This document shows, piece by piece, positions 16,190 to 17,352 of a DNA stretch of 64,000 nucleotides. A program made the position numbers and the translations under genes. The notes below the pieces were generated by a model. The model made no database searches. It saw only the letters and a program-made list of their open reading frames with translations, and was not told the DNA's origin. The first letter of the stretch is position 1; every line of letters starts with the position of its first letter. Origin of the DNA: Bifidobacterium felsineum (GTDB lineage Bacteria; Actinomycetota; Actinomycetes; Actinomycetales; Bifidobacteriaceae); the NCBI RefSeq assembly GCF_002802915.1, contig NZ_PEBJ01000001.1, positions 558,001-622,000 on the forward strand, written 5' to 3'.

Positions 16190-17179
16190 CTACTTGCGGA
16201 AGAACGGCACATTGGTAATGGTGAGGTTGCCATCGCCGTCTACATATCCCTCAATCGCAATGGTGCCGGAAATCGGCATTGGCTGCCCGTTGTAGTACGG
16301 GCTGGTCTTCGGAGCAGGGGAGAAGGTCAGATTGCCGGAGACGGTCAATCCACTGGGGGAGCCGGGCGTCGGGGCTGTAGGCGCAGCCGGTGCAGAAAGA
16401 CCAGAAGTGGCTACTGCGGTCGTGCGCTCCTGTGACTGCGCATGAGCACTGTTATCGGTATCGTCAGCATCCTCGCTAAAGTCAAAGTCCGGTACGCCCT
16501 CGGGCTCGGCTAGCATATCGGCGAGCGATTGCTTGGACGTTGCCGCAGCGGAACCGGCTGTGCTCGGCATGGGCTTGCGCAAATCAGCGGCATCCGCCTT
16601 ACCGTCGAGAACAAGCTGCACATCCGGTGGCACATCGGTGCCGTGTGCATATTCGGAGTTCAGCAGCGACTGCCATCCCTCAATCGGCAGATAGCCGTCG
16701 CGCGCGCCGGACCGGCAATCCCCGGCATAGGTGCGCGCCAGTTCGTCCACCAATTCATTGCCTGCATTGCTGGCATGCCCTTTGACCCATTTGAAATTCA
16801 CAGGCCCTGGTCGACGTGAAATCTCGGCGTCGATTGCCTTGATCAGTTCCACGTTCTTAACCGGCTTCTTCTGTGAATTCTTCCAGCCGTTGCGCTTCCA
16901 GCCTTTCACCCAAGTGGTGGAGCAGTTGATCGCATACTGCGAATCGGATTCGATGAGCAGTGGCTCGGAACCGGGATGCGCTCGCAATGCTTCAAGCACC
17001 GCGCACAATTCGCCGATCTGATTGGTGCCGTTCGTGGCACCGCCTGCATCGTATCCATGCTCGTCATGCTCGTGGCCAAGAGTGCCGCCTGCATTCTTCG
17101 CATGGTCGGCCCATGCCCACCCCATTGGGCCATTAGGATTGCCCAGTGCGCTTCCGTCTGTGGACACGGTAATAGTCAT
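16190..17179 (-). CDS. rnhA: Ribonuclease HI with long C-terminal extension
   Basis: Cleaves RNA in RNA-DNA hybrids. Residues 1-155 form an RNase HI domain with the acidic residues Asp8, Glu57, Asp79 and Asp145 and His135 in KGHASNAG. At 329 aa it is about twice the usual size: residues about 155-329 contain a segment (GYLPIEGWQSLLNSEYAHGTD), a Ser/Thr/Pro linker, and a compact Gly-rich end (TVSGNLTFSP...GTIAIEGYVDGDGNLTITN) that may be a separate small beta domain. AAGGAG precedes ATG 17179. The start overlaps the stop of an upstream ORF that copies its own N-terminus. Confidence 0.9.
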   Translation of the reverse strand: MTITVSTDGSALGNPNGPMGWAWADHAKNAGGTLGHEHDEHGYDAGGATNGTNQIGELCAVLEALRAHPGSEPLLIESDSQYAINCSTTWVKGWKRNGWKNSQKKPVKNVELIKAIDAEISRRPGPVNFKWVKGHASNAGNELVDELARTYAGDCRSGARDGYLPIEGWQSLLNSEYAHGTDVPPDVQLVLDGKADAADLRKPMPSTAGSAAATSKQSLADMLAEPEGVPDFDFSEDADDTDNSAHAQSQERTTAVATSGLSAPAAPTAPTPGSPSGLTVSGNLTFSPAPKTSPYYNGQPMPISGTIAIEGYVDGDGNLTITNVPFFRK

Positions 17180-17340
17180 TTGTGGCTCTCCTTCTTCTGG
17201 GCAATCCTAATGGCCCCTTCTCGGGCGCTTGTAGCGCGACCGCTCACTTCGCCTATGGGCAGTCCACTGGACCGTCCATTTAATGGCTCAGCATTAGGAT
17301 TGCCCAGTGCGCTTCCGTCTGTGGACAAGGTAATAGTCAT
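17127..17340 (-). repeat. Duplicated and inverted copies of the rnhA 5' end
   Basis: A 49-bp segment covering the first 16 codons of rnhA (17131-17179) is repeated directly at 17292-17340 with one mismatch. Part of it (17127-17146) is present a third time in inverted orientation at 17197-17216, 20 of 20 bases complementary. The inverted copy can pair with either direct copy, so two mutually exclusive RNA hairpins can form around the rnhA ribosome-binding site. Confidence 0.85.
17176..17340 (-). CDS. Upstream ORF (54 aa) coupled to rnhA
   Basis: Reads MTITLSTDGSALGNPN, almost identical to the rnhA start (one Val/Leu change), then diverges to unrelated sequence (AEPLNGRSSGLPIGEVSGR...) and ends at a TGA overlapping the rnhA ATG as ATGA. 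It has no Shine-Dalgarno, but TAGTGT lies 6 nt before its ATG, as expected for a leaderless start. It may couple translation into rnhA, whose AAGGAG lies inside its 3' end. Whether the peptide itself functions is unknown; a remnant of a duplication is the simplest alternative. Confidence 0.55.
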   Translation of the reverse strand: MTITLSTDGSALGNPNAEPLNGRSSGLPIGEVSGRATSAREGAIRIAQKKESHK

Positions 17341-17346
17341 GTGCCC

Positions 17347-17352
17347 ACACTA
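17347..17352 (-). promoter_or_regulatory. Candidate leaderless -10 box of the rnhA upstream ORF
   Basis: TAGTGT on the minus strand ends 6 nt before the ATG at 17340. No convincing -35 box is seen. Confidence 0.35.

Follow-up and report, generated by a model that had tools for sequence, protein, structure and literature searches.

In the Bifidobacterium felsineum genome analysed here, the start of rnhA occurs twice, and the sequence that lies between the two occurrences is a copy of a dispersed repeat restricted to Bifidobacteriaceae. The explanation that we consider probable is that (i) the repeat was inserted after codon 16 of rnhA, (ii) the start of the gene was re-created behind it, and (iii) expression of the gene is preserved by termination and reinitiation. 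The feature is more interesting as a member of this repeat family than as an attenuator of rnhA.

Organization of the rnhA locus

The locus lies within a stretch of 64,000 nucleotides (the window). The closest named relatives of the source genome are B. saguini and B. cebidarum, rather than B. longum, to which an earlier reading of the window, made from the sequence alone, had attributed the DNA. All the sequence features that this reading described are present as stated. A duplicate of the first 49 bp of rnhA is present upstream, at a spacing of 161 and with one mismatch; it forms part of a direct repeat (17131–17182 and 17292–17343) of 52 nt and 96% identity. The exact 20-bp inverted copy between the two was found at 17197–17216, and pairs over 20 bp without mismatch with 17127–17146 and over 16 bp with 17292–17307. 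The 54-codon upstream frame (17340–17176) ends ATGA on the rnhA start at 17179, and TAGTGT, said to lie at the leaderless distance, occupies 17352–17347, 6 nt ahead of the upstream ATG. A near-identical 49-bp repeat with an exact 20-bp inverted copy inside 226 bp is not a product of chance, and other species, as well as a second gene, show the same arrangement. The features, in the order in which they are read (A and B denote host sequence on either side of the insertion point), are as follows:

17347–17352, minus strand: TAGTGT, a −10-like hexamer at leaderless distance from the putative original start (TAnnnT is conserved there)
17293–17340, minus strand: upstream copy A, the putative original first 16 rnhA codons, now the start of the upstream ORF (its leader matches B. 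saguini and B. cebidarum)
17176–17340, minus strand: upstream ORF of 54 codons, comprising A, the repeat, the inverted copy and the linker, with a TGA that overlaps the rnhA start (assigned from the open frame and stop position)
17216–17292, minus strand: dispersed-repeat core, 77 bp (BLAST and covariance-model matches elsewhere in the genome and family)
17197–17216, minus strand: inverted copy B'A' of the rnhA A/B junction (20 bp exact to 17127–17146; covaries)
17180–17196, minus strand: linker with Shine-Dalgarno-like AAGGAG before the putative re-created start (a Shine-Dalgarno-like motif is found in 17/17 element-bearing species)
17132–17179, minus strand: downstream copy A, the putative re-created first 16 codons of an intact rnhA (sequence comparison)
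16190–17179, minus strand: rnhA, RNase H with a long C-terminal extension (PF00075 RNase_H, E 8.7e-30, residues 3–150 of 329)

The core contains two hairpins, in the order GCTGAGCC, hairpin 1, TAGGCGAAGTGAGCG, hairpin 2, GAGAAGG; hairpin 1 covaries. The upstream ORF product gave no Pfam match in a family search, and a sigma-70 scan of the rnhA locus gave no match. At the other end of the gene (window 16190–16730, minus strand), rnhA continues for ~180 residues past the RNase H domain, made up of a linker of low complexity and the C-terminal stretch YYNGQPMPISGTIAIEGYVDGDGNLTI.

The intervening sequence is a dispersed repeat

A BLAST search of the source genome with the rnhA locus returned more copies of the stretch at 17216–17293. 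A covariance model, built on the first 52 nt of the core, detected 20 copies in the source genome at E<2e-5, plus weaker relatives. According to the same model, the repeat is present in 79 of 112 Bifidobacterium genomes, at up to 52 copies per genome. It also occurs in three other genera of Bifidobacteriaceae, and is absent from the 296 other genomes of the class that were searched (0/296). Alignment of the cores reveals a hairpin with compensatory changes. The rnhA-locus repeat has no match in Rfam up to E 1, and no description of it was found in the open-licence literature on bifidobacterial palindromic or dispersed repeats.

A mobilising enzyme was looked for among Y1 transposases in the source genome and reverse transcriptases in the 112 genomes, and was not found. 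The Y1 (REP-associated tyrosine) transposase, PF01797, has no match in the source genome, while control genomes were positive. Reverse transcriptase was rejected as the mobiliser: it occurs in 8 of 112 genomes, the source genome not among them, compared with 79 of 112 for the repeat.

Repeat copies at other genes share the architecture

Reading by eye showed that local repeats accompany other copies too. In 31 of 40 strong copies, an inverted or direct repeat between the flanks of the same locus exceeds the 99th percentile obtained when left and right flanks of different loci are paired, a null that includes a few orthologous pairs and is thus conservative. Among 25 copies examined closely, the direct copy ends within 2 nt of the core in about 20, and the inverted copy extends 3–17 nt beyond the junction in about 20. 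For copies at gene starts and ends, the rule is A, core, B'A', and then a second A and B. Because a second A|B follows the repeat and the inverted junction copy, the host gene remains whole. This general claim rests on the flank-pair test (40 copies) and the close examination (25 copies), and not on a hairpin test; indeed, the proposal that a hairpin adjoins every core was rejected, with 5 of 37 above the 99th percentile and 18 of 37 above the 95th.

A matching arrangement occurs at a NUDIX hydrolase gene (identified by family search) in about a dozen species, likewise after codon 16, and with the Shine-Dalgarno region inside the duplication. Further copies lie at the 3' ends of typA, era and ispH, as well as of pcrA/uvrD-like and glgP-like genes (these last two identified from sequence ends only). 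Repeat-free sites are found in relatives for rnhA, NUDIX, typA and others.

The rule does not extend uniformly to every copy: a second class (e.g., L040, L042, L043, L082, L088 and L089) has flanking arms only. At upp, the arms occur without the core in relatives. Specifically, the orthologs of L040 (L099, L109, L119 and L129, at the upp 3' end) have inverted as well as direct copies of the end of upp and no repeat core, so local inverted duplication also occurs independently of the core.

The upstream copy carries the putative original start

Two signals distinguish the two starts. Firstly, TAnnnT, beginning −14 to −12 before the start, precedes the single rnhA start in 30 of 34 element-free species; in element-bearing species it precedes the upstream start in 14 of 17 and the downstream start in none. 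The three exceptions are tandem arrays of which an inner unit was read; in B. pluvialisilvae, TACGCT is present at the first unit. Secondly, all 17 element-bearing species have a Shine-Dalgarno-like motif before the downstream start. In addition, the leader ahead of upstream copy A is that found ahead of the single rnhA start in B. saguini and B. cebidarum. Judged by these comparisons, the upstream copy is the ancestral, predicted leaderless start, and the downstream copy is a re-created start with a Shine-Dalgarno-like motif. Given that TAnnnT is found only at the original start and the Shine-Dalgarno-like motif only downstream, a leaderless rnhA appears to have been turned into a second cistron, downstream of a piece of its own sequence. 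Leaderless initiation is frequent in Bifidobacterium: in B. pseudolongum it accounts for 15% of transcription starts (PMC4782308).

The upstream ORF ends at the rnhA start

The upstream ORF is open in all 17 element-bearing species. As expected of a translationally coupled pair, its stop lies at or next to the second start in each of them: at +1 (an NTGA overlap) in 15, and at −6 in two. Copy spacings of 140, 149, 158, 161 and 260 are all 2 mod 3 and keep the frame; only a spacing of 159 differs, and in the two species that have it the stop does not overlap the rnhA start. With shuffled linkers, a stop near the start is expected in about 4.9 of 17 cases for rnhA (17 observed) and in 1.7 of 11 for NUDIX (9 observed), counts that are indicative and overstate the evidence because the species share ancestry. 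Within the core, the upstream-ORF frame is free of stops in 13/13 rnhA copies, whereas 8 of the 32 copies from other sites contain one. The ratio of nonsynonymous to synonymous codon differences is lower in the rnhA copies (2.06) than in the others (2.9). Strict frame conservation was rejected as a general rule: it applies to rnhA, two exceptions apart, and fails at NUDIX, whose spacing varies and where one ORF stops early.

Coupling of the upstream ORF to rnhA, as the sequence-only reading had proposed, thus gains comparative support from the conservation of the stop overlap, the promoter position and the downstream hairpin.

Hairpins, occupancy and alternative explanations

The two pairings of the inverted copy are mutually exclusive, and the predicted fold of the downstream pairing holds AAGGAG and the AUG in its loop, where the rnhA ribosome-binding site had been said to lie. 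The minimum-energy fold of the whole stretch chooses the downstream pairing (−89.4 kcal/mol, z −4.9), and the downstream hairpin alone has −45.3 kcal/mol (z −7.2). When partial stretches are folded, the upstream pairing has −59.8 and the downstream pairing −45.3 kcal/mol. The helix between B'A' and AB of the downstream copy covaries, with 24 double-change cells across 17 species versus 7.2 in shuffles, and this covariation includes the third base of a Gly codon outside the upstream copy. The inverted copy also covaries with the upstream copy. The direct copies evolve in concert (distance 0.086 within species, 0.203 between species). Selection on the hairpin, and homogenisation by template switching or gene conversion, could each account for this covariation and copy similarity.

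Occupancy was compared across the rnhA protein tree. B. saguini and B. cebidarum lack the duplication and have a plain leaderless rnhA start. Absence of the duplication from close relatives with normal rnhA expression had been named beforehand as a result that would refute the attenuator reading, and the first half of this, the absence, is observed. Since the nearest relatives keep the plain start, the arrangement would not be needed for rnhA expression in the genus. A single clean clade of element-bearing species was rejected: presence is scattered on the tree and requires 14 changes, where shuffled labels give a mean of 13.9. Degenerate remnants without the upstream ORF were found in B. reuteri and B. 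myosotis. Scattered occupancy implies frequent scarless loss or repeated insertion. The sharing of one linker type by distant species, together with the remnants, would favour old insertions with repeated scarless loss via the direct repeats; other linker types suggest that repeated insertion may occur as well.

One alternative is that the arrangement is a neutral scar, tolerated as the gene was re-created, with a linker start that works independently and copies kept alike by gene conversion or template switching. The concerted evolution of the copies, the scattered occupancy and the B. reuteri and B. myosotis remnants are all in line with this, and hairpins are known to arise and persist through template switching (PMC8794818). 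However, the frame survives several indels with the stop position kept, and in the rnhA copies it is free of stops; we therefore regard a neutral scar as unlikely.

A regulatory attenuator is possible, albeit with a low probability. Here, the inverted copy would switch between its upstream and downstream partners, and translation of the upstream ORF would set rnhA output in response to a signal. Both pairings are stable, mutually exclusive and covarying, and the downstream stem encloses the Shine-Dalgarno motif and AUG. However, the architecture is not built for rnhA, being found also on NUDIX and at the 3' ends of typA, era and ispH; it is missing from close relatives; no sensing element was seen, and the upstream peptide is variable; and a scan of the rnhA locus for intrinsic terminators found none. 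It is the presence of the architecture on unrelated genes and its absence from close relatives that lead us to favour expression-preserving coupling over attenuation. Finally, a chance local tandem and inverted duplication with no repeat family involved, the origin that the window alone suggests and that the sequence-only reading had adopted, is highly improbable and is refuted by the repeat census: the intervening sequence recurs across the genome and family with flanks arranged in the same way, and most strong copies show the same duplication pattern.

A model for insertion and for expression of rnhA

The preferred explanation, in which an inserted repeat is accommodated by re-creation and coupling of the gene start, draws on the observed repeat family, architecture, frame, stop position, promoter position and covariation. 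For the insertion steps, transcription start, translation and reinitiation, we propose the following. Insertion into a leaderless rnhA after codon 16 would yield the pattern A|core|B'A'|linker|A|B. It may have begun with a break or nick at A|B, from which snap-back (fold-back) synthesis would copy the junction before the end was joined to the repeat; the order of segments is consistent with such a fold-back model. Transcription would begin at the original ATG, and a leaderless ribosome would read all 54 codons of the upstream ORF, including the repeat and the inverted copy. This translation would open the stem formed by B'A' with rnhA codons 12–18. On reaching the TGA that overlaps the rnhA start, the ribosome would terminate and then reinitiate there. 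The main effect would be that RNase H expression is kept after the insertion, with regulation, if any, being secondary. Recombination between the two A copies could excise the insert scarlessly.

More tentatively, and with some doubt, the repeat may be an active mobile element with a defined insertion reaction, in which the target is duplicated and its junction is copied into a neighbouring hairpin. Junction copying and target duplication would then mean that insertions near gene starts or ends repair the gene they interrupt. At the 5' end, termination-reinitiation would serve this purpose, as an equivalent of self-splicing introns at the level of translation.

Comparison with known systems

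Rickettsia palindromic elements (PMC2229807) are also short palindromic repeats of one lineage whose open frame is read in frame with host genes. The present repeat likewise lies in open frames within host ORFs, where its translation is predicted. However, the host protein is not lengthened here; instead, the gene has a duplicate start and begins again past the repeat, which is accompanied by locus-specific inverted and direct copies. REP/BIME sequences with RAYT transposases are, like the present repeat, dispersed short palindromes: hairpin repeats in tens of copies, extragenic and at gene ends. They differ in that the source genome has no Y1 transposase, the arms here are derived from the locus, and the sites lie inside gene starts and ends.

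MITE-like repeats (ERIC, RUP, Correia/NEMIS, YPAL) are similarly non-autonomous, mobile-looking and <200 bp. In contrast to these, the terminal inverted repeats here are not conserved, the arms being locus-specific rather than common to copies. In addition, the direct host duplications are variable and of ~20–90 bp, with an extra inverted junction copy; those of YPAL are 3–26 bp (PMC2229807). Quasipalindrome, or template-switch, mutation (PMC8794818) also generates reverse-complement copies locally and maintains the match between hairpin arms, but here the events are tied to a specific repeat family at a fixed relative place. Lastly, in NTGA translational coupling the stop of the first ORF overlaps the second start, as here, except that in the present case the first ORF consists of a detached copy of the start of the second gene, joined to a repeat.

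If the proposed explanation is right, this would be a bacterial repeat family able to sit inside housekeeping genes without breaking them. It would represent a natural conversion of a gene from leaderless to Shine-Dalgarno, reinitiation-dependent expression, replicated across species. Bifidobacteria would then offer numerous occupied sites with natural empty counterparts for the study of leaderless translation and reinitiation, and a consistent molecular footprint from which to work out the insertion mechanism.

Tandem arrays and related repeats

At rnhA (L176, L198, L242) and at NUDIX (L141, L144), the entire unit of core, inverted copy, linker and start copy is repeated in tandem, probably as a result of recombination between start copies. 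Among the weaker model matches in the source genome, L053, L055, L059, L060, L062 and L063 represent a longer related repeat, with GAGGCGATAGCCGAGCGAAGGT and GTCCnTAATTGCAGG downstream; judged by eye, most of these are located at the 3' ends of genes. A second dispersed hairpin family comprises L042 and L043 with their relatives L101, L112 and L121, and also L082, L083, L088, L089, L094 and L097. Its members have long, locus-specific arms round a conserved top, GACACgCTCnaGGC..GGCCAAGtcTTACG, into the centre of which the repeat core is sometimes inserted.
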